Assembly: GCA_022925895.1 (NCBI GenBank)
Contig: JAKSYS010000224.1
Coordinates: 19,804-83,803 of the forward strand
Source of the DNA: Fragilaria crotonensis
Taxonomy: Eukaryota > Bacillariophyta > Fragilariophyceae > Fragilariales > Fragilariaceae
Direction of reading: 5' to 3'
Length of the DNA: 64,000 bases
Shown one piece after another: positions 204-62,213 of this stretch. Position numbers and translations under genes: made by a program. Under the pieces are notes generated by a model, which was given only the letters and a program-made list of their open reading frames with translations, was not told where the DNA came from and searched no databases. Each line of letters begins with the position of its first letter. Position 1 is the first letter of the stretch.

Positions 204-524
204 GAAGCAATCACGGCGCTCTAGCTAGTAGCTAGTACACATGAATTACTCCAGAATTATGAACAAGTATTTGGTTAAATGATGTATTGTTCCAACTTCC
301 AGCTTCCAGCAGTATCCCTCCTTCATGTATCCCCATCAGCATTGTGGGCGTCATTGTACAGTACCTGCTACTTCAGTACTCCGAGGTACAAGTACTTTCA
401 GCATTTCGCGCTGAAGGAGTTCCTTCCCGTTTCCTTGTACAAGTAGTACTGTAGGGGGTAGTGGTCTTCTACTACCGGTAGTAGTAGTGTAGTAGTACCA
501 GTTACAGTTACAGTACTAGTATAT
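204..524. other. intergenic, GTAC-palindrome-rich
   Basis: No gene is seen. The segment holds many short GTAC-centred palindromes and a perfect 16-bp palindrome at 469-484 (CTACTACCGGTAGTAG). Element 1 is inserted at its right edge. Confidence 0.6.
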
Positions 525-529
525 CATCT

Positions 530-1122
530 TGTTAGGATTCTACCGTCACTCTGTCACACTGTCTCTCGTCTTACTGTAAGGTTAAATACCATACGGTAAT
601 ACAGTCGACAGTCCTTTATTTTTCTTAGTCTGTCCGTGACCCGTTCCCGTAGAATTCTACGGATCAGAACCTGGTACTACCGGTCTGCAACACAAAACTA
701 TTTGAATTTACTCCCTATGTAATTCAAATCATGAGTGTTGTTGATAACTTCAACAACACTCTTTTTACTATGGACAACACTTCCCAAACACCACTCAGGA
801 AGTGGGACTAAGACAACACTTCATTTGTGAGACTCCAACTAATGTTGCAAGTCTCACCTTCATTTTTCATCCCAATTCATCTTATAATTTCCACAAACCA
901 AAAACAGTAAAGGCCTTTACTACTTAGTTTCTACATTTCTACATCCTTGTATCAACAAATCTACCGCCATGGTGTATGTCTACAAAACACCATCGCCCAA
1001 AGCTGGACGATCCGTCAGGTTCGCTTCCTCACCCGTCAAGTCCAACGTTAGACTTCTAGGTCCTACTAACCTTAAGTCTACCGTCGGCCAGTACTCGTGT
1101 ACCGATCACACGAACACTGTCA
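530..1122 (+). repeat. Element 1 left (5') LTR
   Basis: This 593-bp direct repeat of 20856-21445 starts TGTTAG and ends TGTCA, giving canonical TG...CA termini. It differs from the right copy only by five one-base changes in homopolymer length and by no substitution. It contains an ATG at 969 that opens a frame running out of the LTR into the internal region. Confidence 0.95.
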
Positions 1123-2351
1123 TGGTTGCTCGCCTCGAACCACCGGTCCAAGGCTCTACCGTCGAGAGAAATTACTCGTCCGATCATTGGGCGAACCTTC
1201 GTACGGCCGTTAACAATTTGAGTTTAACTGCTATTAATTTCCCTCTCCTCACGGACTCGCCAGCAGCAAATTTAAACTCCCCATTGAAGAACAGAAGCTT
1301 CCCCAAGTCCACCATGAAGAACGCCATCCCGCCCACCCTTGCCCCTCGCATCTCTAGGTCCGCCCGTAAGGCCGAAGACCGCGATGCCTTCGACGATAAC
1401 GTCGACGTCCGCGCCCCCATCGGCGCGAATCCTGTCCCTCCCGATACGCCAACCTATCCTGGCCTCTATCATGGAGCCTTAGCTTTCGGATCTCCCAGAG
1501 GATCCAAGCATCAACGTGTCCACCGTTTTCCTTCTCCCAACACTACCCCTGATGACGATCAGGATCAACCAATTAAGAAGAAGAGGCGCACCTCCATCAA
1601 GAAAGGTCCCCAAGCCGCCTACCATGCCAACAATTCCGACGACAATTTCGACCAGATCATCCAGGAGGATCGCAACCTCCACTTCCATGAGCGCAACAAC
1701 AAGATTGCAGCTCCTTCTCCTCAGGGCACCAACATTAGCCACAGGGCTACTACTCCAACTAAGATGGCTGCAAAGATGCAAGCCACTTCTCCAACTACTC
1801 CAGCTTCTTTAACCACTACGGATGACAACAAAAAGGGCACAACTACTGAACCAGAACATGAAACTACAAAGCATTATGCATCTACCAATGTTGCCTACAA
1901 GGACATTGGACCTACAGATGATAATAAGGAGGACAACAACAGCAACAACAGGACTACAGTTACTACAACTACCAATTTGAGCAAATGCACTAATTTCAAC
2001 AACATGGCACCAAAATCCACAACCAACGTCGCACTCGATGCCACCCAAACACCAACACAGGAACTCGTTTCGCCCCCTACGGTTTCCTCGAAGCGCAGAA
2101 TCGCGCTCGCAGATTTTATCCCCGTCGTCACCCTCGCATCGCGACCCCAAATCGATCCATACGACGATCCGCGTCGCTGCAATACCTTTCCCAAACCATT
2201 TTGGAATCGATCGATGACACATTCCCCAATTCTTCCCCCTACCTTTCGCTCCATCACGTCGACGCAGACGATTCGCGCCCAGCTCGCTCGCACCTCCTCA
2301 GCTCGCCGATCAAATTCTGATCATCATTTGCAAATTTTCACAGCAACTTGA
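969..2351 (+). CDS. Element 1 pre-gag frame, first part (starts inside the LTR)
   Basis: A 460-codon frame begins at ATG 969, inside the left LTR and in a good context (CCGCCATGG). It crosses the LTR end and the primer-binding position and continues to 2351. The product is rich in Pro, Thr, Ser and Asn with basic patches (KKKRRTSIKK near residue 205), so it is probably disordered. It matches no family I recognise. A gag start codon inside the 5' LTR is known from yeast Ty1, which makes this start credible. Only one TGA separates it from the next open stretch in the same frame, so it is probably the N-terminal part of a longer protein. Confidence 0.5.
   Translation: MVYVYKTPSPKAGRSVRFASSPVKSNVRLLGPTNLKSTVGQYSCTDHTNTVMVARLEPPVQGSTVERNYSSDHWANLRTAVNNLSLTAINFPLLTDSPAANLNSPLKNRSFPKSTMKNAIPPTLAPRISRSARKAEDRDAFDDNVDVRAPIGANPVPPDTPTYPGLYHGALAFGSPRGSKHQRVHRFPSPNTTPDDDQDQPIKKKRRTSIKKGPQAAYHANNSDDNFDQIIQEDRNLHFHERNNKIAAPSPQGTNISHRATTPTKMAAKMQATSPTTPASLTTTDDNKKGTTTEPEHETTKHYASTNVAYKDIGPTDDNKEDNNSNNRTTVTTTTNLSKCTNFNNMAPKSTTNVALDATQTPTQELVSPPTVSSKRRIALADFIPVVTLASRPQIDPYDDPRRCNTFPKPFWNRSMTHSPILPPTFRSITSTQTIRAQLARTSSARRSNSDHHLQIFTAT
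1123..1137 (+). promoter_or_regulatory. Element 1 primer-binding position
   Basis: The bases immediately after the LTR read TGGTTGCTCGCC. TGG is the complement of the CCA end of a tRNA, and this is the expected place for minus-strand priming. The matching tRNA was not identified. The coding frame opened at 969 passes through this site. Confidence 0.5.
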
Positions 2352-4138
2352 AGTGGGACGTCATCGACTTGGCTCGCTACATTCGACAAATTAACGCATT
2401 CACCGAAGATGAGGTACCAATTAACACCTCCTATACCCTGGGCGATCCAAGATGACGTTGACAAAGTCATCAGAGCAACTGCCGACGAACATGTGAAGTC
2501 ACTTCAAAACACACTCACCATGATCGCACATGCACTGGTACGCCACACCACGCGTTGCCAGGCGCCACAGTACAACCTTCTCAGCCACCACTCCAAATTT
2601 GAGCGAATTCGAAGCGACAGATCTCGAGAAACGACTGTTCAAAGTTCTAAGAGTCATTTCGGCACTTTGGTGGGTACCGACAACTCTGCAGACTCGCGAC
2701 TCAAAACTATGACGTCTGATGAGAACCGTGATAACGGCTCTGCTACCCAGCAATTTTGTACTGATTTTTCCCCGATTGACCCAGAAATCCCGGATTCCCA
2801 AAACTCCCAGCTACCTCGCCTACGTTCTACGAACTATACCCGAGTACAGCCCTGCTCTTTTCCGGAATCCGATCCCGAACCAACTCGCAACGACAACTCA
2901 ACAACCCTCGATTCCGTTTCAAAATTTTCCACGTCAAGTCCGATTCCTGACGTCGTTTTGGAGATTTCCGATTCTGTGAAACGTTCCGTTAACGGTTCTA
3001 ACGCATCGCTCTCGTACTGTGCTGCCGTTGACACGGGAAACGCAGCTACTGTCGTTCGTACCGCGGTTTCCTCCCCCAACCCACAACAATGGGCCTGCAG
3101 AGCCCACAATCCGACCGTTTCCTCTGAGACTTTGACCTATTTGGATGTTCAGCACCCTGTCCCAATCAAATTGGAAGATTTGCCAAGCTCCCAAGCTGAT
3201 GATGCCGATGTTTTCCTTGCCGATCATTGTTACTCCTGCAGTAATAATGACTCAACTAGGGAAACTGTTAACTTTTATCCTGATGCCGACCCAGATCCGC
3301 TACCAGAAGTTGCAAACGACCTGATCCCGAACCAATGGACATTGTTGAAGATGATCTTGACAATAATGGCGACGCTAACCGAGATATTGGTGAACCTAAT
3401 GAGGTACCAAGTGCAGCTATACAACAACTTGTCAGACTACTGCCTCCTCTGCGCCCTGCCTCCCCGTTGCGATCCGCCAACCCCCTTGACGCCATTCATC
3501 ACCACCCTTTTCGGATGTTCCAACACTTCCATCACATTCCGTCACGCAACCTGTTTTTCACCGAGGCAATGCTAATGGACACAATCAACGGCACGATTCA
3601 CCTTCGCGACCTACCTCTTTGCGTTCGCACAAGTGCAACTATCTCTGCCTTTTGCATCAACACACTCGCCGACCCACCCGAACTCAACATCATCCGTGGC
3701 CTCGACAAGCACTTCATCCACCACATCCTACGTCACGTCATACGCGATCACATGTATATCGACGAACTAATCTCCGGCACCAACATCCCACTTCTGAACG
3801 TACAACCCGATAAACTCTTGCTCCTACGTAGCATGAAACACACCCTCAATCGCGCTACCAACATGGTCGTCCAGCACCTTAACGACCAACAACGCTCCCA
3901 GTTCCTGCCCCGCCGAACTCCGCGAGCATTCAGCGACATTGACGACGCGTTCCGACGACCCCCAGACTGTCCGATGGAAACACGATGCGCAGTCGCCATC
4001 ATCTACGCGCTCAGATTACTATACATCACGCATCACCGCAACTATTTCAACCGCGACCATGGACTAGCTGAGCACTACTTTTATCCGGACCATCTATTCG
4101 CAATCGCAAAGAAATCAAGTCAACTGCCACCGCTCTAA
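2352..4138 (+). pseudogene. Element 1 pre-gag region, second part (unrecognised, frame-broken)
   Basis: Open stretches at 2409-3575 and 3335-4138 continue the plus-strand coding-like sequence in different frames. The second has a protein-like mix of hydrophobic and charged residues over about 200 codons (for example LNIIRGLDKHFIHHILRHVI and PDKLLLLRSMKHTLNRATNM), which suggests a folded domain and not a low-complexity tract. I recognise no copia domain. Length and position are unlike an ordinary copia gag. Frame changes probably reflect single-base indels. Confidence 0.4.
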
Positions 4139-6420
4139 GTCTCCTTCCCGATACAACAACCTTCAACCTCCTGCCCCGTTTTGTTCACGATGCCTTTGAC
4201 GAAGTCGACGACCTATTCCCGGAACATCCCTCGGCCACCGTTCTGATCAATATTATCGCGACAAACTGCCCTATCTCCAAACGGAATTCGAACTCGTGCA
4301 ACCTTATGTAACGGACTACATCAATTCTTTCCAACGCCATCCACGAAGCCAAAGTTGCGTCTGACCGAGCCTGCGAATTGATTAACGTCGCCCTTTTTCA
4401 ACATGCTATCATCCATCGTATGTCAAAGAAGCGTTCCAAGCAACCTGAACTCAACAACAACCAAGTTTTCATTGGCAACCTCCCCCCTGCAGACATGTTC
4501 CTTTCCAGTTTTGCTACCTGCTACCCAATGATCACTACACCTTCTGATGTCCAACTGACCTTTGACAATGTTACTGAAGATACTTTGGCCATCAACCATG
4601 TGATTTGCAATCCCCTCATCCTTCAGGAGCTCATCTCCATGAACCGATTTGACAGCGACCCTCTCAAGTACATGGAGATTTACAACCGCCTCACTCCGAT
4701 AGCAACCGACACCGTCAACGATTCCATTGACTTCCTGCCCCATTTTGAATACGTGCTATTCCGAGTTGTGCAACTGCTTCATCCCAAAGATCCAACTGGC
4801 ATTATCAGAGAGAACTACCCACCCACCAATGTTGTTATTTTCCAGGGCTCCCCACTCCAAGCTCCCACCTACTGCTTTGGCTCCCCAACTGAAATTGCTA
4901 TCCCTACCCAACAACTGGTTTCTTTCCATCAACCTTGACCATTCTGGAGATCCATCATTGTCAACAATATTTCTGGTGAAGCCTACAATCGTTCCACAGT
5001 TCAACGCCTCTTTCGGACCCAGACTGCCAAACCAATTCATCCTGATCAAGTTAATGACCCGGATTGGATGCCACGCCACACTGCCGATTTACGTCGCCAC
5101 CCCGATGCCGACTTGTACCACATTGCCTGCGACCCCAAACGCATCCCGTTTTCCTTGGCTGTCCGCTTGATTCCAGTTTATACCACAGGCCCCAGTGGGC
5201 AGACTATTTATCAAGCATGGGCTCTTCCACACCTTAACAATGCCCTCCGCGACCCTGAACTGCAACTATTCAACAATTTCCTCTCTTACTATCACACTGC
5301 AAAAGAAAACCACCCTGAGTTCCCATTCATTGATCTCATGGGATCTGATTCACCTGTTCCAAACTATGGTGAGTCTAGTTCACAATGTTTACATTATCCT
5401 GGTTGTTATGCTGGTTACTTACCTCTTTCTATCTGTGACAGTCTAAGCTGTCCCAATCAGATAGAATCAGTTGCAAGTAACAATATAATTACCTTTCAAC
5501 AGGATAATAGTACATTTTCTGGACCACATTTTGCATGTCTTGCCGTTTCAACTCGCCGTTCATCTTTATTATCGGATCCGACTCGAACCCCGGACCCCCA
5601 GGACGAAATTCCTGCACAAAACGACCCGCAAACGCAAATTTTTGCACCAAACGAACCCCAAACTGCAATTTTTACACACGACGAACACGGCGACGAAATT
5701 CCTGCGCAAAATGACACTACCAGCGAAAATCCAACGCAAAACGACACCAACAGCCCGGAAATTCACTCCCAACAGCTAATTTCCGACGCAGAAACTACAT
5801 ACGACGAACACGCACAAAAACTCAACAACTGCGGAACTCAACCAAATCTCGCATTTTACCACCAAACTCGCCCGAAACAAGCAGTTCACACACCGAAACA
5901 CCCTCAACTCACCTCCAACTGCGAAATCAACAACTGGGCCTCTAAAACGCTTCTCCGATGCATTTTCAGGCATTCTCACGCCGAAAACGTAAAATTACCT
6001 CACAATCCGGACGCCACCGACTCGAACCCACAACCTCCGATTTCGACAACTTTTTCGACGACACCCAAAATTATACCTACCAAAAGTTCCCACCCCAAAA
6101 TTCGAACCCCAGCCACCAAATCCGTCGCAAAATCTTTCGCAACCCCAAATTCAACACAACAAATTATTCAACCTCCCAGCACGAAATCTGCCAAACCTAC
6201 GCAAAAATCACCTAATTTTGGAAACGACGACCAAAACCCCAAAATGCACCAAATCCGTTGCAACACGCCCAACTCCACGCCAGGCGACCCACGCAACCTT
6301 CACATACCCTCCACTGTTGAAACCTTCTTTGATGAGGACACAGACCATGATTCAGAAGAAGAACCCAAGCACATTCAACACACATCCCTGATGCGCTCAC
6401 ATCATCAACGAACCGATTTT
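4139..6420 (+). pseudogene. Element 1 pre-gag region, third part (unrecognised, frame-broken)
   Basis: Open stretches at 4378-4938 and 5068-6672 carry further protein-like sequence (for example ICNPLILQELISMNRFDSDP). From about 5580 to 5800 follows a repetitive Asn/Asp/Gln/Pro/Glu segment with recurring IPAQND and IFAPNEP-like units. From about 5800 to 6300 the sequence is basic, Thr- and Pro-rich and low in complexity. No known domain is evident. The recognisable gag begins just downstream, so this belongs to the same transcript as an N-terminal extension or as a separate product. Confidence 0.4.
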
Positions 6421-7633
6421 ACTTATCCGCCAATCGAGGACCTCACGAAAACACTTTTGAAATACGCCAAAAATGCTAACCTTCGCAAATTGGCCTACCC
6501 AACCGACCTTCAAACACGCCGACACTTTAACACCTTCATTGACAACCTTCGAATTGTTTGCAACATTTCCCGTGGACGCGCCAAGTCTTTGATCTTTGGC
6601 CAAAACAAGTGTCCTATTCACACCCTTTGTTGGCACTGCTATCTACAATTTGATCTTCACAAACGTTTGTGACCCTTGCCAGAAACACATCATTGATGGC
6701 CCACCAGATCTCGAACTGCAATTCTAACTCTTGACGCCACTGCGCTCCGCTAACTCCCGATCATGTTGAACGAACTCGTGAAGCTTTCTGCTCCATCAAA
6801 CAACCACATCACGAAGTCGCAACCTCCTACCTCAACCGCATTCGCCTTCTCACGCGCGACTGCTATCATGCTGGAATACCCAACACTGACGCCGAACTTA
6901 TCAAACGCACCGTTCGTGGTGGAAGCAATCACTCCTTCTACGCCGCATCCTATCAACGCTTCGACGCCGACATACGTCGAGCAGAACTGAATGACGACTC
7001 TGCCACCATTCGCCGAACTCGAAAGCCATCTCCTGAACATTGACGAATCCCGTGGCCTCACTCCCATCCCAAAACCACCGCAACTACAACCAACACGCCA
7101 ACGCTGCCCGTGGTCACCAATCCCACCATTTTCAACCGCGCCACAACCAAACTACCCAACGTGTTTTCACACAAAGACAACAACAAGCTTTCAGTTCCAT
7201 CCTTCGACCTTATTCCAATCCCAGCAGCAACAATCAAAACCGAAACCAACCACCGCGACCACCGCAAAACCATTCGCGCCCGTTCCGACCTCCTACAAAT
7301 CCTTCGCGACCACCATTCAACAACTCGAATCAACGTCGTCCACCACCACCCTCCCCGCGGCCATCCAACCAGCCTCAACGAAACAATCGACCACCTTTCC
7401 GACCGACATTGAGCCCCAATCAACGTCCATCTCTAACGGATCCATCAACAACCATCGCGCAACCTTCCAATGCCGCTACAATCGTCTGCAATAACTGCGG
7501 ACGCCTCGGCCACTATGCGCGCAACTGTACTAACCCCAGATCAACCAAAACAATCGCTCCACCAACCCTCAAAGACCATCCAACAATGAAAACGCTGCTC
7601 CCGCAACCAACAACGCGCCTACTTCATCACTGA
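6421..7633 (+). pseudogene. Element 1 gag (copia capsid/nucleocapsid), frame-broken
   Basis: The stretch near 6520-6980 resembles the diatom copia gag core (RRHFNTFIDNLRIVCNIS, then CYHAGIPNTDAELIKRTVRG after frame changes). It is followed by a Pro/Gln/Asn/Arg-rich linker and a single CCHC zinc knuckle, CNNCGRLGHYARNC, at 7487-7528. Gag packages element RNA in virus-like particles; the knuckle binds nucleic acid. At least three frame changes interrupt it. Between about 7110 and 7410 all three forward frames are open because the sense strand is poor in G. Confidence 0.7.
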
Positions 7634-7639
7634 CTCTGG

Positions 7640-8330
7640 CCAAAACTCACCAGACCAATCAAGATACCACCACCAAGCCTTTTCAGCCTCATCTTTTGAC
7701 AACACTGATGGTCACCCATCCAACATCCCTTGGCCCAACCTGACCTACCTCAGATGACCATCAACCAACCTCTCCTTGACAGAGATTATCTACCATCTGC
7801 CAATCATTCTCCTCCCACCTCTGGAGCCACAGCATACTTTCCAGATGATCCCCAATCACCATACCAAAGATTTGGTCCCCACATCTTGAAAACTGGCTAC
7901 CTGACAGTGGTGCTACCAGCCACTACTCCACTCTTCAGCGACCTCCACGATGTCGAACCCTGCAGTGTTCCAATCTCCTTAGCTGATGGCAGCACCAAGA
8001 TGTCCACCCACAAAGAACAACTGCATGCCACTTCACCACTGATGATGGCCTCAAGTCCATCCTAGGACTCACTGATGTCTACTATGTTGAAGGTCTCAGC
8101 CACAGACTCCTCTCCTTAACTGCTCTATCATGCACCCAAAACTTCAGTGTCCTGATCAAGAACAGAGCCACAACAATCCAACTCCCAAATGGTTCCACAT
8201 ACACTTGGCCAATACTGACCAGAGAACTCCTTCATCACAACAGCCTTCTCAACCATCTCCAACTCTAACCTACCTTCTGACCCTGACTCTGAACCTGATG
8301 AACAACATTTTGATGACACTACACCCCTGT
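7640..8330 (+). pseudogene. Element 1 protease (pepsin-type), frame-broken
   Basis: The stretch contains TSGATAYFPDD (about 7812-7848), later ISLADGST (7972-7996), and, after a frame change, LTDVYYVEGLSHRLLSLTAL (about 8065-8130). This is the usual layout of a copia protease, with a DSG(A) active site, a GS(T) flap region and the conserved YVxGLSxxLLS end. The catalytic Asp position reads Thr here (ACC TCT GGA). That would inactivate the enzyme unless it is a sequence error. The order after gag and before integrase fits. Confidence 0.6.
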
Positions 8331-8361
8331 TGACACCGATCAACGCCGTTCAGTCACCGCC

Positions 8362-9300
8362 CTACCTTTGGAACTCATCTACCGACGACTTGCTTTCCGA
8401 AATTTCCGCAATCTTATGGTCGGATCCCTTCACCAAACATGGAATGACCATGTCTTGACACCTACTGTTGATCACAACTCCTGGCCTCGCGTTTCAATCA
8501 GCCAAAACGTGCCAACAAAACTCCTCAACGCCAAGGCACTGAACCTTTCCACCGCCTTCATCTTGACCTAATGCGCAACCCTTTCCGCTATGGTCTCACA
8601 ACCAATACCAACTTTTCAGCCTACTTGTTCATTGTCACAACACCTGGCAAACTAACAGGTTGGATTGGTCTCCCAACTGAAAGCACAGCTTCCATTATTA
8701 CTGCTCTAAAGCAATGGCTAACTGACACAGAACTCCTTGGCCACCCAATCCGTCCGTTTTATCCGCACTGATGCTGGATCTGCTTTCACCTCAACCAAAT
8801 TCATTTCTGAATGCACTTCACTTGGTATCAAAGTTGAAGCTGCAGCACCTGAACATCAAGAAATGAACGGTATTTGCGAAGCCAAATGGCGTGAAGTCCA
8901 CAACACTGCCAACATCCTCTGAACAATGCAAGACTAGGAGTGCATTCTTCCATCATGCCCATGCCTATGCTGTTCAAATCCTCAATGTCTGCCCAGCAAG
9001 AATGTTATTGACCAAGATGGCAACCCAACAACTCCCTATCAATACAGCCAACGCAAGCCTTCCCAACTTCGCGTCTTCGGATGTCCAACATTCTTCAAGC
9101 GCTACGAACCAACTTTCCGCAACAAACTTATAACCTACAAGCAACAACTCCAACGTGCATCGCGGAATTTTCCTTGGATTTCCCGACAACTCTGCAGGCT
9201 GGTTAATCTACTCGCCAACCAACCCCAAAGCCTCATCATAACCCGCGACGCCTACTTCGATGAAGACTTCAACTCCGCTCTCTGTTTGATTCCAAACCTT
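8362..9300 (+). pseudogene. Element 1 integrase, frame-broken
   Basis: The zinc-binding N-terminus is degenerate (LIYRRLAFRNFRNLM near 8372-8418, where His residues are expected). The core follows: TPGKLTGWIGLPTES (about 8643-8688), RTDAGSAFTSTKF (about 8761-8800, second Asp) and APEHQEMNGICEAKW (about 8845-8890, Glu). These are the last two residues of the D,D,E catalytic triad. The frame changes at a CCC run near 8744. Integrase before RT marks the element as copia and not gypsy. Confidence 0.8.
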
Positions 9301-9604
9301 TGCTGGAGCCGTACCCATCCGCTCCCACTTCAATCCGCATGGACTTCGTGACTCAGAGAACTCTGAACCATCTACCTACCATCAAACTGGCTCTGCAGCC
9401 AACCTTGGTAACCCACCATCAACTTTCATTGATACTTCCAACCATCATTCTTCCCTCCCTGCCATCCCTGAAACTGATGACAATGCCCATGAAGATGATC
9501 CACCACCTTCTAAACTTGCTGCAATCAAACATACAACTCCTCAACATGGTCCAACACCACCCACACCACATCAAATCAACTTTGTCACCCATCAACAACA
9601 TCAT
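9301..9604 (+). other. Element 1 integrase-RT linker
   Basis: The expected low-complexity connection between integrase and RT, rich in Pro, Thr, His and Leu, with no recognisable domain. The LINE is inserted at its end. Confidence 0.5.
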
Positions 9605-9621
9605 TCCCAACTCCACAAGAT
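9605..9621. repeat. LINE target-site duplication, left copy
   Basis: TCCCAACTCCACAAGAT (17 bp) is repeated exactly at 18869-18885. Joining the two copies restores continuous copia coding sequence from the integrase-RT linker into RT. Confidence 0.95.
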
Positions 9622-9640
9622 AAATAAATAAATATAAACT
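9622..9640 (-). repeat. LINE 3' tail (TTTA repeats)
   Basis: On the minus strand the element ends in TTTATATTTATTTATTT directly against the target-site duplication. This is a short A/T tetranucleotide tail of the kind some LINE clades carry in place of poly(A). Confidence 0.8.
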
Positions 9641-9888
9641 AATTATTGGGTTAGCACCGTCTCCAACCTTTGTCAAGATTGAAGTGTGTACCCCGGAGTG
9701 GCGTCACTGTACTAGTACAGTGTCGCGGCCCCTTACTAAAATGTTCCACGATTATAGTCTCTTGAAGAATTCCGTAATCGCAGTTTGGGTTTTACCGTCG
9801 TGTTCGTACCGTGCTCGAGCGTTTCGCATGTACAGTAACCACCTCCTCCTTACTGAATGACTTGCACGATAAATCTCCCAGTGGACGT

Positions 9889-12480
9889 TCACAGAAATGT
9901 CGGTCGCCTTACGAGTTCAGGATGGTTGTGAAGATGAGTGATCTCAAATAATTCTGGACAACGCAATCCTCGCATACCCTGCGAGTCATGGCCATGTAGT
10001 TTTTGGTTCCGTGCTTTCCACATCGACATACTGAATTCGTGGGTTGCTCGAATGATTTTCCGCATAGTCTGGAGACCCTTTGCCTGGATTATTTCCTCCG
10101 TATCACCTGCTGGTAGGGATGCTAGGTATCGCCACTCGACTGTGAAGAACCCTCGCATGGCTGCAGACCATCCAATCCGTGACTGTTGTGCCACCGCCTT
10201 CACGATCGAAGATTGATGGAGACTCGGATACTCCGTCATATCCAAATGCTGGTCCTTGTTTTCCAGCCAGTTTAACAACATATGCTTGAGCGCCTTGACG
10301 GGTGGGAGCAGACTCGCAGTGTCTATCGCTCGTCTAAACAGACCAAGGGCTGTCTCTCGTCCTGGATTTTCAATACATTGGAGAACGTGGTCGTCATCTT
10401 CCTCCACCCGAAAACAGCATGGACACAATCTCATGGTTGGGTCTTTTATCTTCGCCACTTGGTACCTCCGTAGTCCAGTGTGTCTCTGGTTGTTCATGAA
10501 CTTGACTTGTGCAGTGTGCTTAGATGGGGTCAGCGACCGGCAGAACTGGCTCAGTAGTTGAATATCAATCGTATTCCACTCGTCGTCGGTCCACTTGTGA
10601 CGAGCTTGTAAATGTTGACGCAAATGATAGCCGTTGATGTGGAAGCGGATACACTCCTCCACCTGTCCTACTTGCTGAATGCCTTGAATCCAAATGGAGA
10701 CTCTCGACTCTGGAATATGGACCGTGATTTCTCTGGACTGTCGTCTTGTGGTACCATTGCGATATTCGGTAGCTAGTTCGTCCGCGCGGTTGTTTCGGAT
10801 GACATCCTTGCTTGGATTTTTTACTTTGATGACCTTTTACCCATGTTGGTAGAAGCTGAGAGCGTAGAGAAGTTCGATACGATCTTATCTGGGCAAGAGA
10901 TCTGAGTTTGTGGGTTGTTTCCACCTGGGCTTATGGGCTGAAGTATGCTTCTCGACGTTCGAAATTGCTGCTTTACTGTCACACACCCACCGTAGCTTCC
11001 CTGAATCTTTGTGCCCCACTGGTGAACGAGCAACGACAGTAACAGGAGTGGAGCAGCCAATCCAGCAATCTCGCATCGAGTCGAATTAGCAACATCTCTG
11101 GGCCCGTCGACTGGTCCCGATCCTTCGTACAGGATGATATTCTCTGAAGTGCTCAGTGTCCACCCGAATGTACCCTAGCATCTTTCAAACCGCCGTCGCT
11201 AGCAATCGTGAGATTCTTTTTCGAGCGGCTGGCTTCCCATACTTCTGCTTCAGATACACATAGTCGGACTGAACTGAGTAACCGTCGTTGATAAGGGGTA
11301 GCGTTTCCATTTGGATGCTGTCCGTACTATTAGTGAAAAGATCAGCGGGCTCTTCCCGCGGCCGGATATTCTGCTTGATTTCTTGCAGATTGTCTATCGG
11401 TCTCCTCTTCCATAAGTCTCCATATCGTAAATAATTTGACGAGATATAACGTCGCCATAGTCGTCGTTGGTGGGCGGACGGTCGCTCCTGGCGAGGCCAC
11501 CCAGGTATGGTTTCGAAATGTGGAGGCCTGTCACCCCTAGGAGATGTTGGGAGATCTTTCTGTGGTCGTAGCAACACAAGTCAGACAGCTTGAAACATTG
11601 CAGGTATAGGCGAACCAAATTTATATCCCTTTGTTGAACACGAGAGTATCGGGATAGCCGATCAGGATCCATGATTGCCGTATCCTGCTTCCCTTTTAGA
11701 TCAACTTGTAGTACATCCGTAACATGGATCGCCATGTTGTGATTCGACAGAAATTGGCGGAGAGATCCACGTTGGCGTCAGGTAATCCAAAACGATTGTT
11801 GGATGCTCCAGAAGATGGGACAAAATACCCGCTTCCAACTGAAGCGTCTTCAATTGTATGACCAAAAGTTCTCCCACTTCCGTACGACGGTAGATATGAT
11901 GGCGAAAGTACTTCACATCTCAATTCCACACTCGGTGCGAAGATCCATCAGTCCCAATCCTCCCATGGAAAGCGGCCCGTGGCGGACTGCTGTTGGTAGA
12001 TTCCTATTCATCCCTAGCTTTTGTACAATTGCCGGCAATATCCTTGTTTGTATCTGTTCCAACTCCTCCTCATCGATCGCTAACGCTGGAAGCGAGTATC
12101 GCATTGCTGGCTCATAGGTTGTTCGTACGAAAACTCTTATGTCGCTCGACGTCAACCGTGGTGTCTGTATCCGGGATGCGTACTCGTCGGCCTTTTTCTT
12201 CAGTATGGAAACGTGGTGGGAAAAATCGCCGATCGGGTTTTGGTAAACTCAAGTATTCGTGTTGCTTGATTGAGTGATTGTCGGCGAATTACAACTCGGT
12301 GCGGATCTTGTCCTTGGCTCAATCTGACTGTTGCGGGGATCTATCGTTTGCTCTCGAAGAATGGGACGTCCTGACCTCAATCCCAATACATGACAAACCA
12401 CGAGCATTTTGAAAGATTTAGAGAACCTCCGGAGTAGTGCAATAGTTTCTCCCATGTTTGTGCTAGATCTTCAAGGCTTG
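9889..12480 (-). pseudogene. LINE ORF2 C-terminal part: RT thumb, RNase H, zinc motif
   Basis: On the minus strand, open stretches include 11913-12155 (HGPLSMGGLGLMDLRTECG, the conserved region after the RT core), 10565-11060 (CDSKAAISNVEKHT and RNNRADELA-like residues in different frames, suggesting RNase H) and 9889-10662. The last has the motif CPCCFRVEEDDDHVLQC, a Cys/His cluster typical of LINE C-termini. The RNase H call is the least certain part. The frame is broken several times, probably at homopolymers. Confidence 0.65.
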
Positions 12481-13676
12481 TTACGAGATCTTCAAAGGAC
12501 ATACTTCCGTTGTCCGTGAATCCGAGGCAGTGTCGTCCACAAATGCATCCACCAATCTCGAATGCGTATTGACGCCGTCCGATGATCGGAAGCTCATTCG
12601 GAGGGGACTGACTCGCTCCAGCGTATTCAGAAGAATGACTACCAACGTGAGCCAAACAGCAGGGATGCTCCGCTGCCTTGCCCCGTACCAAAGAGGAGCA
12701 AATGGAGTACCTGTATAGGAATTCTCCGACACTCCATACACAGTTTTAACCATATAGCGCATAAGTTCCAACGATTGGGCGTGAGACCTTACAGCATTGA
12801 TCGGCATGCCGCATCGTCGGGCGGCCAACATTCCCAGGGCTACTATGATACGATCGAAACACGCAGACGCGTCATTATCGAATCGAGCGTAGTTGGTCTT
12901 CAAAATCTACTCATGTCGGCCGTTAGTTGGGTCAACATGATAGGTTCCATTGTCGTTTTCCCTGGAGTTGAACCGTGTTGGCCCGAGTTGAGTAGATTCA
13001 TCTGCACTGCTCTCCGTACCAGTCGCGATCCCCAAGTGAGTTTCAGGAACAAGTTATAGTCTGCCTCGAACAGATGAATGATACGTAGACGATTGATTTT
13101 GGGATCTCCTTATCTTTTCGATCATGACGTTCACTGCTTTTGCCATCTGGGAATAGATATCCCGCGTGTCACAACAATGTTCAAGAATTTGGCCATACTG
13201 TCGAGCAGGATCGGATCCTGTACCAACGCTTTATAGTGACCGAGGTGTCGTCCAGATGGGGACGTAGTGGTAGATTCCTTCCAACTTAGGATTCCTTTCT
13301 TGAAATCCTCACTGGAGATGGTAATGGGGATTGGATCAGCGTCTTGTACCGAGTTGGGAATGGTGAACGACGCGAGAAACTCTTTCAATAGCATGTCGTC
13401 TCCATGCCATGAAGATGGTACTATCCCCCGTAGGAGATCCTCGGCTGCAGGAGACAAACTGGTGAATGTTAACGCGTCATGGATCGTGCCATTGCCGCAA
13501 GGTGAAGAAGCTGCAGCTCTGAATGCGTCTCTATTGAACTTGACAAGGTGGGCTTCGATTTCCTCGCGAGAGATGATGGTGTCCACATTATGTCCGCAGG
13601 GAGTCTCCTCCAATACCGTGTGCACATCGCCGGGCTGAGTTACCTTGCTGGCTTCTTTCTCGCGAGGAATTTTCAA
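12481..13676 (-). pseudogene. LINE ORF2 reverse transcriptase core, frame-broken
   Basis: The stretch 13131-13676 (minus) holds the finger motif STTTSPSGRHLGHYKAL. The stretch 12481-12903 holds motif A, FDNDASACFDRI, and motif C, FVDDT (about 12529-12543), the catalytic aspartates of the polymerase palm. RT copies the element RNA at the nicked target. The two parts are in different frames, with about 230 bp of matching but frame-shifted sequence between them. Confidence 0.85.
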
Positions 13677-14201
13677 CTTTGTGAGTGGAGAGTATTCCCC
13701 GGTTTAATCAAGTTTTTGATATGTGAAAACATATTTCGATTTGATTCACTCGAGTGTTCGTCGTACGATTTTGGCCTTTCGCATGGATTCATGTTTCGTG
13801 TGGTGATTAGTGTCAGCGTCGTATGTGTCTAACAGATCTTGAAAACTCTGTTGGCGGTGAGACAATGAATGTTTCTGAACGATGCGCAGTTGTTTAGATG
13901 CCTCGTTGAGACGCTTTCTGACCGTGTTCACATCAATGCCTGACCAAACTCAGGAAGTCGAAAGGACGAGTCAAATTCTTGAATCTTCGTTTCCCATCTT
14001 TGAAAGGTTTCTTGGTAATCTGCCCCATGTAGGAGTTCGCGCAGTCGGAGTTTCCAGTATCGCATTATCACCCCGTATTGCGTAGTTTCGGCGACCATTT
14101 ATATGTTTTCGGTTGGATGTGGAGAACCTTTTCGGCATGCATCATCGCGCGGCCTTGGTCGTTGTCCCACGCACATAAGAGTTTGCGGAGTTGTGGCGTT
14201 G
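13677..14201 (-). pseudogene. LINE ORF2 segment between endonuclease and RT
   Basis: No long frame persists. A stretch at 13746-13931 (minus; LNEASKQLRIVQKHSLSHRQ) is basic and helical. It is expected to be linker between the endonuclease and RT domains, in broken frame. Confidence 0.5.
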
Positions 14202-15502
14202 TCATTTCCTGATGACGTGCATGTAACTCTTGGATCCGAGATTCCATATTGTGAGTCTCGTAGTATTTCGGACTCCCGATAGATACGTAGCAACCATTTC
14301 TGGATTTCCACTGTACAACGATCTCATATTCGGTGTATCCATTGGACTATCAACCGTATCCCCTAGGATTTCTTCCAGTCTTAGATCGACATAGAGACCT
14401 CGGTGATCTGATTGTGGGCCCTCTATATAAGCAAGACTGCCTTGGCGCATTACAGAGGATACAACTTTTGGACACCCGAGTATATAATCGATCCGTCGAT
14501 TCGCTGAACCAATAAATGTGGATGGGGCAGGGTGAGTGCTGTGTAAGTCAGACAAATCGCAGGATCCAATAAATTCCTGCAAGTGCTTATCCTGATAGAT
14601 GGTTCCGTTTGCGTCCATCATTACCAAAATCGAGTGCCCTGCATTCTGGAGCTTCATGATTGTCTGTCGGAGATCTGATAGTATCCTCTGTCGGGGCTGG
14701 GGAAACTTCACCTTGTCTCCGTAGTACTCATGTTCCCTTACCAATGCACTCCCTAGTGGCGCCTGCCTTACTGATCCCTCGCATACTCTGTAGACAGTGA
14801 GTAACGAAAGTGGATCCGCCTTTACCTTCGATGGTGATTCCACTCCATCTGCCCAGTCCTGTAGGGTCGCAGATTCCTGGACCTTGAACTGTCGTTGTGT
14901 GTTTTCCTCGGATAGTGGTGAGACATCCCCTGCCTGAAAAGATTCGCTACTCGAACATCGATCCACCTCCGTTATTGGGTACCCAAAGACTGTTTTCCCC
15001 AATCTAAACTGTCTCTTAACACTCGCTGTGTATTCCATTTGGAGATGGTATTGTTGCCACGCGGTGTTTGTCTCAGCCAATCAAAACAGTCGACTCGAAT
15101 GCCGCCATCTGGGACATGTAGTATTTGTAGTCCTCCAATCCGGAGAATACGTCAATCCCTTACATTCTGAAAGAATATCCTTAACGAACGTGGGTCTTTA
15201 TACACAACCGCATCACCGAATGATTGTGTAGCCTGTGGGTCTGTTTGCTTTCTTGCTTTGATTCGTCCAGGGCGATGTCTCGGGAGCATTAAAACTGATG
15301 ACAGATGTGGCAGTGGTGGATGCCTGTCTTGTCCTTGTGACATATAGCGGCCTCTTGTTCTGTTGGACATTCCGCCATTGCATGATTGACCAAATGGAAT
15401 CGTGGTAGTATCTAGGCTGTTCATTTCCTCGTTCGCGGTAGTCTCTCCTCGTGTCCGCATCACCTCCTCTGTACGCTGCTGATTATGATGCTGTGTCGCC
15501 AT
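14202..15502 (-). pseudogene. LINE ORF2 N-terminus: APE-type endonuclease, frame-broken
   Basis: ORF2 appears to start at ATG 15502 and includes RSLRIFFQNVRD, the usual entry to an endonuclease/exonuclease/phosphatase fold. The larger stretch 14202-15080 has AETNTAW (catalytic Glu), MMDANGT (about 14606-14623, Asp and Asn), RRIDYIL and SDHRGL (about 14397-14413, final His). These are the metal-binding and catalytic residues of AP-endonuclease-type LINE nickases. The two parts are separated by a frame break near 15080-15150. Confidence 0.87.
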
Positions 15503-18186
15503 TAATCAGGTTTGCCACCGTCTGGATCGAGGGGTCTTGTGTATTGATCGTCCAGATCGGTTGGGGCTTCGCGGGATGCAAGGTTCCCAATATGATGTTG
15601 TCCGCTAGCCTGGTGTAGGGTATTAGCGTGTTGTAGTTCCTCGAAAGCATCTTCAAGGTTTAAGCAGACGTCCGACGACTCAGACATATCCTCAAGAAGG
15701 TCTTCACCACCGATTCCATGAATTGCGAATCCTTCACCCTTCTCTTCTTGGTATGCAAGGCCCTCTATTGGTTTAATCTTGTCCTTATCTATCTTATCCG
15801 CAATTATGCAGTTGTTGTGTTCGTCATCGCCGATTCGGTGTTTGGATCTTGTATGCTGTTTCTTTTTCTCAGGAGATCTGTAAACGCTCGTGTCTTGGGA
15901 TGAGTCCTGAGATGTCTTCGATTTCGTCGATCCAGAATGCACGCTCGACCCGCCACTATGTTGGCTTCTTTTGTTTGCCCTAGGATTTTCCAAATTTCCA
16001 GGGTTTGAATACTTCGTGCCGTCGATGTGTTGTCGTGTCATTGCTATTTCCATTTTGTCCGCCATGGCTGTCATAAACTGAGATAATTGTTCGAATTGTT
16101 TCCTCATGTCCAACATCGTGTATGACATGTCTTGTTGGCTTTCCATTGTGAGAAGTATCTTGTCGTTCATGTCTGAAAATTGGTGGGATGTTTCCTTGGA
16201 AAGTACCTCCAAATTATCTGATAAGATCTTTTGCTCTTTTGCCGATTGTTCCAGCTTCACATTTGAATGTTCTAGTTGCGTCTGGACTGCCGACATTTTG
16301 GTATCCAACTCCTCTATTCTTGTGAATTGCCGTTCAAGATTGTTCAAGCGGTCCGATGATATCTTCCCTGATGTTTTCGACTCCTGTTGTTGTCGTTTGA
16401 TTAACTGTTCGAGTTCATGGAATCTAGAGTCCGTGCTATTCATTCGAGAGACAACTGTCATTGATCGTGTTGAGGTTGTGCTTCTTTCCTCTTCCATACT
16501 TGTGGCAGAACTTGCCTCCGACCCGAGGTACGGATTGTTTTGCTCATGGTTGTTGCGTTGGTTAGTTGTTCCAGTGGACTGATCGCTACGGTTGTTGGAC
16601 GCCTCAGATGGAGTTGGCCATGCTTGTTTTGTGCGTTGGAGATGTGAGTTCAGACTGGTGTTCTGTGAGACTGTTTGGGGCTTGTTGTGATTGGAATTGT
16701 TGCTTGGCGACGTTGAATCTGACCTTGGTTGTCCTTCTGGTTCTCGGTGCCATGTTGTCGCCATCGACATTTGTTCCAGGAATTGCACATTTGCTTGGAT
16801 CTCCGTCTGAATGACTATTACGTCGGGAAGACCTGGTAAATTGTCTCTGAACCTTGCTTCTCGATGACTCGGAGGAAAAGCCTTGATTTGTATTGCTGCC
16901 ATTGATATTGTGCGCGTTTAAAATAATGACTCGGAGTCACCAAATATGCCTTGTTGTCATTTGTCCCGTTAACTGCATCGCATAAAGCTGAAGTGGTTCC
17001 GTCCTTTTCTTTAAGAGATGCTATCCATTCTCGTGTAGATCGTTTTGTTGTTGATCCGTCTTCATGGTATTCAGTGCGAACTTGATCAAGATGAGTGACT
17101 TGTGGAGAAAGTGTGATCGCTTGCAATGACTTTGCCCACCTGTCATGGAACTGAAAATGTTTCCGAACCTGTTCGTTGCTCATTGTGCCTAGTGCGTATC
17201 TTGGTAAGAACAGAGCGATACCTCGTCCCGTCATGATCGGAAGAAGTGCTTGGCACAACGGTGTGACATGTTTCTCCCCGCATTGGATCGTGAGATGTGG
17301 AATTAGCTGATCCATAGGGCACTTTTTCTGTCGAATGACGTCAAAAATGGAGCATGATCCGGCAGTAAACTCCTTAAATACTTGTTGTACCAGAGTTTAT
17401 GAGTGGTGTTCGGAGCTTTGAGCAGGATATATCCCGCTGTAACCATTTTACCACTTGAGCTCGCAGAGTTTGAAATTGTGACATCAAGTTGTTTTGTTGT
17501 AAACTTTTCCTTCATCATTTCAGAATTCTTCCACATGGACGGATTGTTCTTAAAGCCAAAGCGGACTCCAAATATCATCTGAGATCGCTCTGGTATCATT
17601 GTAACTTTCGGAGATATATAGTCTCGTAACCCGATAGCTGTTAGATTTTGCACCGAATTTGACATCATCAAATCTTCGCTTTCCCACCGGTACAGCATTC
17701 CGTATTGTTCGGGAGAATATCACTCACTAAGTTGTAGATTGCTTCATTCATTTTATTTTTGTCGCTTTCGTATACTGCCAAATCCTCCGGTGGGAACCAT
17801 TTGATCGTGACTCGATGGGTACCATCGTTTGTCGGAATGTTTGGATGTGGTGCTGTTTGGGTGGTTGTATTGTTCCATGGCGTCGTACTCTCCTTTTCAT
17901 TTAGATCATGTCGGTTGTTACCAAATACGTGTTGGGTTTCCTGTTCAACTTCGTTATCCGTCACATTTCGACCAAGTGGAAGTTGCTGAGAATCCTGCTT
18001 CTTATTCTCTCTCATCGTTTTGTTGAGCTGGTCAGCTTTTTCCCTTTCCTTTCGATCACGTCTTTGTTCTTTTGGATCAATGGGAGTTGTCCTCGTTGTT
18101 CCGGCAGTTTGTTTTCCATGGGTCGATAGTTCCTTGGTAATTCTTCTGGGGAAGATTAAAACCAGGAGCAAAGGCACCGACAACAT
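15502..18186 (-). pseudogene. LINE ORF1 region, frame-broken
   Basis: Minus-strand open stretches 17668-18186, 17303-17698, 16818-17315 and 15502-16902 overlap by a few bases in successive frames and read as one protein. It contains THRVTIKWFPPEDL, MLYRWESEDLM, GYILLKAPNTTHKLW and ARFRDNLPGLPDVIVIQTEI. The last part has a long helical or coiled-coil stretch (about 16100-16400) and an acidic/basic C-terminus. It resembles proteins repeatedly found in diatom LINEs. An RNA-binding ORF1 role is inferred from position. Confidence 0.65.
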
Positions 18187-18258
18187 TGCTCGTATTCACG
18201 TTAATAATGGACTGCTGATTTGGTGGGCTCTTTGATCGACGGCGTCCTGAAACTGGGA

Positions 18259-18774
18259 TCAAGCTTGGGCATCGTCAATCTCCATTTCCTCTTGCTGTTT
18301 GAAAAATCGCATCTCTTTCCAAGAGTAAGCAGTGGTATCGGTTTCGTGCAATGTCGTTGGGTCATGGACCGCTAGATACGGTTGAGAGATGTTGGTTGCC
18401 CAATCGTTTAACTTGACTGGAACCTGGAGATCACGATCAACGTGACTCATGAAGTTATACCAGATTGCTCTATGGACCATGAGAGGATCCGTGTTAACAG
18501 CTGCCCAAACTTTGTCGCATTCGAAACAATCTTCGAACACAAACAATCCAAGATGAATGTATCGATTCCAGTTGGTTGGGTGTCCGTACTGCCGATAGGC
18601 CTGCGCGTTGGCGTTCCTACGATAACGTTCTTGGCGGGAAAACCAGTCGGGAGCTTCGGGAATGGGTTGATCTACCCAGGTGTCAGTCTCGAATCCATAC
18701 ATCGTGTGCGATGGAGTCAAATCGACGGGGAGAGCCGAAGGAGGCGTGGGAGCCGTTCCTTCGGTCATGGTCAT
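18259..18774 (-). CDS. LINE 5' small ORF, unrecognised
   Basis: A minus-strand frame of about 171 codons starting at ATG 18774 lies between the LINE 5' end and ORF1. The product has an N-terminal Pro/Thr-rich segment and aromatic-rich central sequence (WFSRQERYRRNANAQAY, NRYIHLGLFVFEDCFECDKV). No family is recognised. It may be a separate small protein or the N-terminus of ORF1 before a frame break at about 18190-18260. Confidence 0.45.
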   Translation of the reverse strand: MTMTEGTAPTPPSALPVDLTPSHTMYGFETDTWVDQPIPEAPDWFSRQERYRRNANAQAYRQYGHPTNWNRYIHLGLFVFEDCFECDKVWAAVNTDPLMVHRAIWYNFMSHVDRDLQVPVKLNDWATNISQPYLAVHDPTTLHETDTTAYSWKEMRFFKQQEEMEIDDAQA

Positions 18775-18868
18775 GATGCTTGGGGTACGCGACAACTTCC
18801 TATTTACTGTACGCAATTACGGACTGCGGACAGACTGTACTTGCGAAACTCTAAACTAGAAAATTGTG

Positions 18869-18885
18869 TCCCAACTCCACAAGAT
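18869..18885. repeat. LINE target-site duplication, right copy
   Basis: Exact copy of 9605-9621. The LINE 5' end (minus strand) lies directly to its left. Confidence 0.95.
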
Positions 18886-20100
18886 GATGACCATCTACTT
18901 CCAAGAATGCAATGAAGATCTACCAACTATTGATCCCATTCACTCTGCCATGATGACAATTGACAACTCTCACAGCAACAATTCACAAGCCAACCCCCAG
19001 GAACCTGTGGACAAATACCTTCCAGAACCTCAGTCTCTCAAAGCTGTCCTCAAACTTGATGATAATGTCCGCAATGCTTGGCTACATGCAATCAAAATGG
19101 AGATCAAGAACCTCATTGACCATGATACTTTCATCCTTGGACAAACTCCACACAAAGATGAACTCATTATCCCAGTCAAACTTGTACTCAAAGCAAAACA
19201 AACTGCAACTGGAAAACTTGACAAACTAAAAGCTCGCCTTGTCGCCCGTGGCGATCTGGAGAAACGTCTCCTGAAAAGAGTCAAAGCCATCAACCAACAA
19301 CGACTCCTTGAACAACGTCAAGAAATTGCTGAATCTACCAATTCACCTGGCACTCCAAAACCTATACCTGTTGAACCACTCATGTATGAAGACACCTGGT
19401 CACCCTGTGCATCTGCAAGAGGGGTCAAACTATTCATTGCAACCATCTGTGCATCCAGAAGAAGTGTCAAGAGTGCTGACTTCATTGGTGCCTACCTCCA
19501 AGCCAAAGTTATTGGCGCCACTTTGTGAAACTGCCATTGGAATACGCCTACCACTTCCCTGAATACGCAAAATTCTTTGGCTCCCAATGTTACTGAACAA
19601 AGGAATCTACGGTCTCGTCTACTCCGGCAAATATTGGAACATTGAATTTTCGGAATGGCTCTACTCCCAAGGCTTTATCCAATCTCCTTCCGAACCATCT
19701 TATTTTGTCCGATACGACAAACACAATCAATGGCTCCGTCTCCTATTTTTCGTCGATGATATGCTCTACGCTGGAAGCAACGATTCCATCGAAAAACAAT
19801 TTGAAGATTCCGTCCGCAATCGCTTCGATGTCAAATTCCTCGGACCTGCGCAATGGTTCCTCCAAATGCGTATCCACAAACACTCCGACTCAAGCTATAC
19901 TCTGGATCAACACCGCTACGTTTTGAATACTCTCCAACGTTATAACCCGAATTCCAAATTCCCCGAACGCGATACCCCCTTTCCTCCCGACTACACCTTC
20001 AGCAAGGATAACCACCCCGTAACCGCCTCTGACGTTACCCTCGTCGAACAAAAGCAACAATGCCTTCCCTTCCGCTCTGCTGTCTGCACTCTCCTCTACC
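18886..20100 (+). pseudogene. Element 1 reverse transcriptase, frame-broken
   Basis: The stretch 18886-19528 carries the copia RT N-terminal region (AWLHAIKMEIKNLIDHDTF, KLKARLVARGDLEKR) and motif A in KSADFIGAYLQAK. After a frame change at 19529-19586 the frame 19587-20723 continues with GIYGLVYSGKYWN and the catalytic FFVDDMLYAG (VDD at 19752-19760). The enzyme copies element RNA into cDNA. Motif C is FVDD, a mild variant of YVDD. The motif order is complete. Confidence 0.88.
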
Positions 20101-20844
20101 TTGCATACAATACAAGAGCTGACATCCTATTTGCTGTCTGCAAACTTGCTAAAGCATGCATCTCCCCTGGCATACCTGATTTTCGAGCCCTATCTTGGCT
20201 CATCGGCTATCTTCGCCGCCGCCCCTACTACGCTCTCAAATTCTACCCCGATGGCACTTCAAATCCCATCTATGACATCTGCCTTCACCATCGTATCCCA
20301 TACTCCGATCTCACCGTTTTCTCCGACGCCAGCTGGCAAGACTGCCCTGACACTGGCCGTTCCACTGTTGGATACATGATCTTCTACAATGGTGCCCTCA
20401 TTGAAGCCAATTCTACAATGCCTACACCTGTTGCAATGTCTACTTCTGAAGCTGAATACATGGCCGCATGTTCTGCCACAATGGCCACAGCTCACATCCA
20501 AATGCTCCTCTACGATATGCTCTATCTTGGCACCAAACAATGGCGTGAATCAACCCAACGTCTTCCTTCCATACCTGCCATCCTCATGATTGACAATGAA
20601 GCCACCGTCCAAATCGCAAAGAATGGAAAACTCACTCGCAAGACGACACATCGAACGCCGCTTCCACTTCGTCCGTCAAGGCCAGCAAGACGGCATTCAC
20701 CAACTTCATTGGATTCCCTGTGACTCCCAACTTGCCGACATCCTCACCAAGACTCAACACTCCGGCAAAATTGATCCTCACCTCACCAAGATCTTCTGTG
20801 TTCTCCCCGACCACATGCTTTCATCACCGGGACCAGAGATCTGA
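20101..20844 (+). pseudogene. Element 1 RNase H and pol C-terminus, frame-broken
   Basis: TRADILFAVCKLAKACISPG opens the copia connection region. RNase H follows with VFSDASWQDC (about 20318), SEAEYMAAC (about 20448) and MIDNEATVQIAKNG (about 20587). After a frame change near 20640 the last part reads RHIERRFHFVRQG and QLADILTKT, the typical copia pol end, with a stop at 20842-20844, just before the polypurine tract. Confidence 0.88.
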
Positions 20845-20855: not shown

Positions 20856-21445
20856 TGTTAGGATTCTACCGTCACTCTGTCACACTGTCTCTCGTCTTAC
20901 TGTAAGGTTAAATACCATACGGTAATACAGTCGACAGTCCTTTATTTTCTTAGTCTGTCCGTGACCCGTTCCCGTAGAATTCTACGGATCAGAACCTGGT
21001 ACTACCGGTCTGCAACACAAAACTATTTGAATTTACTCCTATGTAATTCAAATCATGAGTGTTGTTGATAACTCAACAACACTCTTTTACTATGGACAAC
21101 ACTTCCCAAACACCACTCAGGAAGTGGGACTAAGACAACACTTCATTTGTGAGACTCCAACTAATGTTGCAAGTCTCACCTTCATTTTTCATCCCAATTC
21201 ATCTTATAATTTCCACAAACCAAAAACAGTAAAGGCCTTTACTACTTAGTTTCCTACATTTCTACATCCTTGTATCAACAAATCTACCGCCATGGTGTAT
21301 GTCTACAAAACACCATCGCCCAAAGCTGGACGATCCGTCAGGTTCGCTTCCTCACCCGTCAAGTCCAACGTTAGACTTCTAGGTCCTACTAACCTTAAGT
21401 CTACCGTCGGCCAGTACTCGTGTACCGATCACACGAACACTGTCA
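20856..21445 (+). repeat. Element 1 right (3') LTR
   Basis: This 590-bp copy of 530-1122 is followed by the CATCT duplication. Its internal ATG frame runs out into flanking host DNA and stops within about 25 bp. The LTR ends 318 bp upstream of the GPAT start codon in the same orientation, so it could supply promoter activity. Confidence 0.95.
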
Positions 21446-21763
21446 CATCTCTATGCGTACAACCATGATGCATACGAATTACGACTACATAGTAGAACAC
21501 TAACTGTAATCAGAGTGCACGGTCTACTGGAGCAGAGAGAATTACTGTGATATCTGGTCCGTGGACGGTGGGCAGTTGTGGATTGTGGATCCATCACAGT
21601 CGAGTTCTCACATACATATGCACCCTACGCACATCTGTTCTCCACGTAACACGTGAAGAAATCATGATATGCAAAACATACTACCTGGTACAAGCAGTCG
21701 CAGATGAGAATCTAATTGAGAACACCGAATATTTCTTTGTCATTTTCCATCATTCCTTTCACC

Positions 21764-40115: not shown

Positions 40116-40120
40116 GAAGG

Positions 40121-59635: not shown

Positions 59636-59699
59636 AGTTTTGCAAACGGGACTGAAAATATTGCCATCACGTAGGTGAGCAGTAGAACGAGTACGGGAG

Positions 59700-62208: not shown

Positions 62209-62213
62209 CTCAG

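Follow-up and report, generated by a model that had tools for sequence, protein, structure and literature searches.

A 64,000-nucleotide stretch of the genome of the diatom Fragilaria crotonensis (contig JAKSYS010000224.1, positions 19,804 to 83,803; called the window here) contains a Copia retrotransposon in which about 5.3 kb of coding-like DNA separates the 5' long terminal repeat (LTR) from gag. This region probably forms the N-terminus of an unusually large Gag protein, with a domain of about 680 amino acids in it, ABC, acting as a Gag-fused accessory or specificity module. The parts of this reading differ in strength. Its anatomy, namely one polyprotein frame that is under selection and has a modular history, seems nearly certain from comparison of the copies, and a role of ABC as an accessory or specificity domain, as the pattern of its evolution would suggest, stands at somewhat better than even when weighed against all rivals jointly.

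Extension and gag share one open reading frame (ORF) in three divergent elements of the same genome. In L029, from a divergent family, a single ORF of 2,472 amino acids contains the extension, a CCHC zinc knuckle at residue 2157 and a Pol_BBD domain at 2298; in L030, a 2,205-amino-acid ORF runs from the first ATG of the fetched stretch through to CCHC; and in L032, an ORF of 1,751 amino acids runs from mid-extension through both CCHC and Pol_BBD. A fourth, in L031 (1,881 amino acids), stops short of the zinc knuckle. All ORFs reported here are natural, with no frame repair applied. In the divergent families the extension is, on sequence grounds, the N-terminal part of Gag, about 1,800 amino acids long, and not a nested element, and the stop-free ORFs favor one option left by the initial annotation of this DNA, an unusually long gag N-terminus. 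In the window copy the plus-strand frame survives in pieces (969-2351, 2409-3575, 3335-4138, 4378-4938, and 5068-6672), the last of which crosses position 6420 into gag. A fast-evolving N-terminal part of disorder-type composition (969-3478, with the pieces 969-2351 and 2409-3575) precedes ABC (3479-5550, with the pieces 3335-4117, 4378-4917, and 5068-5560), and an acidic, repeat-bearing linker (5560-6411) leads to the gag core, which starts at approximately 6412, ends at 7600 and has its CCHC zinc knuckle within 7040-7630. The repetitive acidic tail noticed initially corresponds to 30-base units at 5606-5754; the folded-looking center placed at 3335-4940 is present as well, but the module, at about 3479-5550, is longer.

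The same region recurs across the window's family. Searched against the genome (62.1 Mb in 881 contigs were covered by our contig searches), the DNA of 3335-4940 gave 42 matches. Of these, 26, the window included, are full length and 94-100% identical, and 18 of the 25 others were fetched with their flanks. All 18 have the region of about 5.4 kb upstream of gag in place as far as window position 5891, and family copies lacking it, which the initial annotation had named as evidence that would overturn its proposal, were not encountered among them. In 17 of the 18 the extension runs beyond 6420 into gag; the alignment of L023 ends at 5891 and that of L013 at 7579, and 16 of the 18 are colinear with the window up to 9621, the site of a long interspersed nuclear element (LINE) in the window copy. 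One fetched copy, L015 on contig C647, aligned over 400-9863, is probably the other haplotype of the window insertion with the same LINE and not an independent copy, because the window's upstream flank and the first LINE bases are common to both. The fetched copies have 69-220 gaps each relative to the window, and different stretches are open in different copies, with ORFs of 788 (L018), 1,173 (L010), and 740 (L013) amino acids in the extension and of 751 (L020) and 818 (L021) further downstream. An unrelated nested element, for which the initial annotation had found no terminal repeats, is ruled out by the presence of the region in all 18 copies.

Stops are rare in this sequence and several frames are open in places, so that ORF length alone gives ambiguous support for a frame there. 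Substitution patterns supply independent support: across L010 1822-5340, variable columns in the family fall on codon positions 1, 2, and 3 as 54, 28, and 109, and of the changes 106 are synonymous, 88 are non-synonymous, and 1 is a stop, compared with an expected synonymous share of 0.26. Chance open frames are ruled out by this third-position bias and synonymous excess. The surplus of about 5.3 kb of coding-like sequence described initially is thus upheld by its ORF pieces, its presence in the 18 copies, the third-position bias, and the long ORFs elsewhere. Among family copies, omega-like ratios (counted directly, with double weight for transitions, and not fitted to a model) are 0.32 at the start of the extension, 0.18 (A), 0.12 (A/B), and 0.21 (C) across ABC, 0.52 from C across the tail to the start of gag, and 0.22 in the nucleocapsid-protease-integrase stretch, and the gag core, with 18 synonymous changes and no non-synonymous one, stands at 0; a second protease-integrase stretch (L021; 34 synonymous, 9 non-synonymous) gives about 0.10 on the same scale. 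By these counts, purifying selection in recent copies acts on ABC about as strongly as on protease and integrase.

Between families, the extension changes far faster than gag. Between L029 and L030, the extension has proportions of 0.40-0.61 for non-synonymous and 0.66-0.81 for synonymous differences, and the start of gag 0.06 and 0.72, respectively. Silent change has thus come close to saturation in both regions, which makes the extension old and its evolution faster than that of gag. This pair thus has the trait of extra upstream ORFs (ORF0) of the Retrosat2 and Ogre type, faster protein change than gag at similar silent divergence. The identity of ABC to L030 is mostly 28-57% between families, against 77-97% for the gag core, which in the family copy L009 is 96.7% identical to L030. 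Across the genome, the window piece 3335-4138 has 149 matches and the piece 4378-4938 at least 151, down to about 30% identity, and where ABC was read whole (L029, L030, L031, L036, and L010) it is colinear over its roughly 680 amino acids, flanked by fast-changing disorder-type stretches. Its conserved motifs include GxLPPAD, SIDFLPxxEY, and WALPHL, with no recognised catalytic site among them.

The middle of the extension also appears to have a history of its own. Members of the family of L028 and L030 are 96-100% alike, and compared with the window family, represented by L010, this family has an identity of 73-88% over the LTR and 5' end, which falls to 47-68% in the middle and rises again to 77-98% from about window position 5180 onward. 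At 4-fold degenerate sites, taken from codons with the first two bases in common, 102 of 174 differ in the center and 56 of 227 at the ends (Fisher p=6e-12). This test used 9 of the 14 computed segments, a choice written into the script beforehand; the segments left out, at or beside the transitions, have 6/22, 16/33, 27/50, 32/58, and 4/28 sites differing. Protein function should have no such effect on silent divergence, which argues for a separate history of the middle and points to exchange of a block, about window 1840-5260, between lineages, presumably through template switching. Close to the ends, silent sites could also be constrained, for example by the primer site or packaging signals; this could add to the contrast but hardly explains its 3' side.

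ABC is usually, and not always, accompanied by gag. Among the matches listed, scored for the best candidates only, there were 108 loci for 3335-4138, 112 for 4378-4938, and 138 for gag, with repeat matches of one locus excluded by hand, and the four counts that follow may all change. Of the 138 gag loci, 106 have a same-strand match to A or B no more than 12 kb upstream and 32 have none; conversely, gag lies downstream at 107 of 120 module loci and is lacking at 13. One of the 32 gag loci without the module, L040 (G000:C354:6400-11200), was read. Its gag core is 77.6% identical to that of L030 (in an unrooted matrix of 6 sequences), and its frame is open for 1,351 amino acids, up to where the fetched stretch ends (1,496 amino acids in the genome-wide list). 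This distant relative still has about 1,000 amino acids upstream of gag, which match L029 on both sides of ABC: to the left at 33% over 57 amino acids (E 1.2, a lead only) and to the right at 36.6% over 123 amino acids (E 3e-11). Only the last 87 positions of the ABC profile match L040 (E 0.005). Together, the flank matches and the nearly absent ABC match indicate that L040 has the extension without the module. Eight more full-length gag matches at 78-79% identity, with no A or B among the matches listed, may belong to the same subfamily.

How might such a protein work? Translation would begin at the ATG at 969 or at 1122 and proceed through disorder-type stretches, ABC, and the acidic linker, about 1,800 amino acids, after which the frame would go on through gag with its zinc knuckle to the protease side of pol. 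Fusion to Gag would cause the extension to be made in Gag amounts, and it could travel with the virus-like particle, on its surface or inside it, or be freed from Gag by the element's protease. ABC may then meet a host factor, or tell the Gag of its own element apart from the Gag of its relatives, and the disordered parts would serve as spacers. Rapid change between families together with absence in L040 fits interaction or specificity better than it fits an enzyme or an indispensable shell component.

Several observations weigh against a Gag extension built around a functional ABC. Neither the window copy nor the fetched family copies keep the frame intact; the simplest explanation is an indel-type sequencing or assembly effect, because the two LTRs, identical at insertion, now differ by gaps only and the copies too have gaps relative to the window, but part of the breaks may be genuine decay. 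Constraint is weak in the N-terminal disorder-type stretches (omega-like ratios of 0.78 and 0.52). L040, and perhaps others of the 32 loci, does without ABC, which would make the module dispensable or supplied in trans. Homologues of ABC offer no functional hint in Pfam, PHROGs, or PDB sequences: Pfam searches at E up to 1 found nothing beyond CCHC-type knuckles in seven window pieces and, for 17 members of the ABC alignment A2, a best value of 0.16, and the best values of ABC in PHROGs (0.06) and in PDB sequences (E 2.4) were, like this one, taken as chance. Finally, single-sequence structure prediction yielded no usable model for either of two window pieces (pLDDT 37.9 and 41.3), and we consider ABC likely to be folded on the basis of composition, conservation, and selection.

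Among the alternatives, a separate ORF0-like accessory protein on the same RNA, freed by protease or splicing and fused to gag only incidentally, is possible if doubtful. It would account for the great difference in rate between module and gag, for the open frame through gag in L040 despite the missing module, and for the long acidic linker between the two. However, extension and gag do not form separate ORFs: the three divergent natural ORFs of L029, L030, and L032 have no stop between them, and the window ORF 5068-6672 spans their boundary.

An enlarged structural Gag is somewhat unlikely. ABC would here be a second capsid-like or scaffold domain, making a larger particle for an 11.6-kb genome, which agrees with the location ahead of gag and with purifying selection. 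Against it stand the absence of ABC from one relative (L040), its far faster change than gag between families, and a probability of only 0.1% for profile likeness between ABC and the element's gag core, the comparison by which we also rejected ABC as a duplicated gag.

Captured host coding sequence, passively carried along, was another option of the initial annotation, and we consider it improbable. Its large size, modularity, and absence from one relative would suit a captured segment, but credible matches, cellular ones included, are lacking in Pfam, PHROGs, and PDB sequences, gag lies downstream at 107 of the 120 module loci among the matches listed, and the region is old, with synonymous sites near saturation between families. 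A host capture too old to trace may nevertheless underlie it.

The two remaining possibilities fare worse. An envelope-like protein for exit from the cell is very improbable: the protein is extra, large, and fast-evolving, and its highest 19-residue hydropathy is 1.76, in module A of L030, but the maximum anywhere in L029 is 1.42, and the region lies ahead of gag and in frame with it. That the whole is an artefact, composition-driven open frames or an unrelated nested element, can practically be dismissed, since rare stops and frames open in several places stand against third-position bias, synonymous excess, colinear protein similarity across families, and presence in the fetched family copies.

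Returning to the Gag-fused module, we can go one tentative step further. ABC may be a new domain family that serves as an exchangeable Gag specificity cassette, seen so far only in the Copia elements of this diatom. If so, families would swap or lose it by recombination and thereby change the recognition of a host factor, a target, or a rival element, much as phages swap host-range modules, and the capsid protein of an LTR retrotransposon would have a modular, fast-changing recognition layer. The protein of L030 has no match in IMG/VR, and the gag profile has no relatives in IMG/VR or in GTDB genomes, collections without diatom genomes as such.

The element itself occupies window 530-21445 and is split by the LINE. 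Its 5' LTR (530-1122) and 3' LTR (20856-21445), both on the plus strand, pair with 0 mismatches and 5 gaps across 594 aligned columns and have TG...CA ends, and a 5-bp target duplication, CATCT, read from the flanking contexts, lies at 525-529 and 21446-21450. Behind gag, the protease-side and integrase part of pol (7730-9621, plus strand) ends at the LINE; Pol_BBD was found in the family copy L020 and not in the short window piece 7730-8062. The LINE lies on the minus strand at 9622-18885, including one copy of its 17-bp target duplication TCCCAACTCCACAAGAT, which occurs at 9605-9621 and 18869-18885. The remaining pol (18886-20723, plus strand) contains an RVT_2-type reverse transcriptase at 19563-20720 (E=4.7e-17). 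Subtracting the LINE gives 20,916 - 9,264 = 11,652 bp, the approximately 11.65 kb of the initial annotation. Pol has the Ty1/copia order of protease, integrase, and reverse transcriptase: the domains are CCHC, Pol_BBD, rve (below cut-off) with SH3_retrovirus, and RVT_2 in L031, and CCHC, Pol_BBD, SH3_retrovirus, and RVT_2 in L030, and the window copy has CCHC upstream and RVT_2 toward its 3' end. TG/CA LTRs, a short target duplication, and a tRNA primer site are hallmarks of Ty1/copia elements, and the window element has all three. Gag directly behind the 5' LTR is the usual Copia layout, not a strict definition, and the window element departs from it with about 5.3 kb of extension in between. 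By type and order of pol, LTRs, primer site, and target duplication, we class the element as Ty1/copia.

The start of the long frame overlaps the signals for reverse transcription. The first in-frame ATG (969-971, plus strand) is where the initial annotation had placed the start of the region, but it lies inside the 5' LTR; it is an ATG in all 18 family copies and is unmapped in L028, from another family. The second (1122-1124, plus strand) is an ATG in the 18 copies and in L028 and is built from the CA at the end of the LTR and the TGG of the primer binding site, with G at +4. Both are in the same frame in the window and in 16 of the 18 family copies. The primer binding site (1123-1135, plus strand) is complementary at 13 of 13 bases, counted by eye, to the CCA-extended 3' end of a tRNA-Met of the same genome with anticodon CAT. 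The primer site therefore falls within the coding sequence, and translation can start either within the LTR at 969 or at the junction of LTR and primer site. A coding primer site with an ATG may likewise arise in further elements that combine CA ends with a TGG primer site.

Elsewhere in the window, a second Copia element of 8.0 kb lies on the minus strand at 54181-62211, with LTRs of about 590 bp at 97.8% identity and RVT_2 and gag_pre-integrase domains. An element at 33462-40116 has identical 177-bp terminal repeats and a weak rve_3 integrase match below cut-off, and a tandem array of a 50-base unit in 2.9 copies lies at 63121-63263. In the genome at large, the silicon transporter domain PF03842 has 19 matches, 18 above cut-off; a 1,456-amino-acid ORF (G000:C97:29749-33762) contains three such domains, and one of 1,008 amino acids on contig C771 contains two. 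Multi-domain silicon transporter ORFs are a feature of freshwater araphid diatoms.

Copia elements are usually compact, and here a Copia lineage with more than 100 loci in one diatom genome keeps a Gag extension that reaches about 1,800 amino acids. A selected domain of about 680 amino acids with no known relation, together with signs that a block was exchanged between families, suggests that Gag can carry large accessory functions. ABC is a concrete protein to express and solve, and L040 offers a natural contrast of elements with and without it.

No report of such a Gag extension was found in the open-access PMC literature, subscription papers lying outside the scope of the search. Among known systems, Retrosat2 is a Ty3/gypsy-type element, and the extra ORF of Ogre sits ahead of gag. 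The nearest relatives by host are the diatom Ty1/copia elements (CoDi), with full lengths of 5,182-8,062 bp in a study that also looked for an ORF1 upstream of the polyprotein ORF (PMC2806351). The window element resembles them in its diatom host, TG...CA LTRs, Copia-type pol, and CCHC finger, and differs in its 11,652 bp without the LINE and in a surplus consisting of a Gag extension. The extra ORFs of Retrosat2 and Ogre appear to be the closest analogues. In rice Retrosat2, ORF0 has a Ka of 0.2574 against 0.0783 for gag-pol at similar Ks and is missing from some relatives (PMC3485330); the window element likewise has extra coding sequence upstream of gag-pol that evolves faster and whose central module is missing from a relative, whereas the Retrosat2 ORF0 is separate and the extension here, about 1,800 amino acids long, is continuous with Gag, a comparison by description only. 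Ogre is described as having extra ORFs of unknown function (PMC6431247); again compared by description only, it is a Ty3/gypsy element of plants and the window element a Copia element of a diatom. The gypsy-like Burro of planarians has extra domains joined to Gag in a giant polyprotein (PMC6431247), as here, but its Gag is N-terminal and several of its extra domains are known cellular ones. Faster-evolving extra ORFs upstream of gag are therefore already familiar, and what appears to be new, judged by these analogies, is a Gag-fused extension with an uncharacterised domain family.

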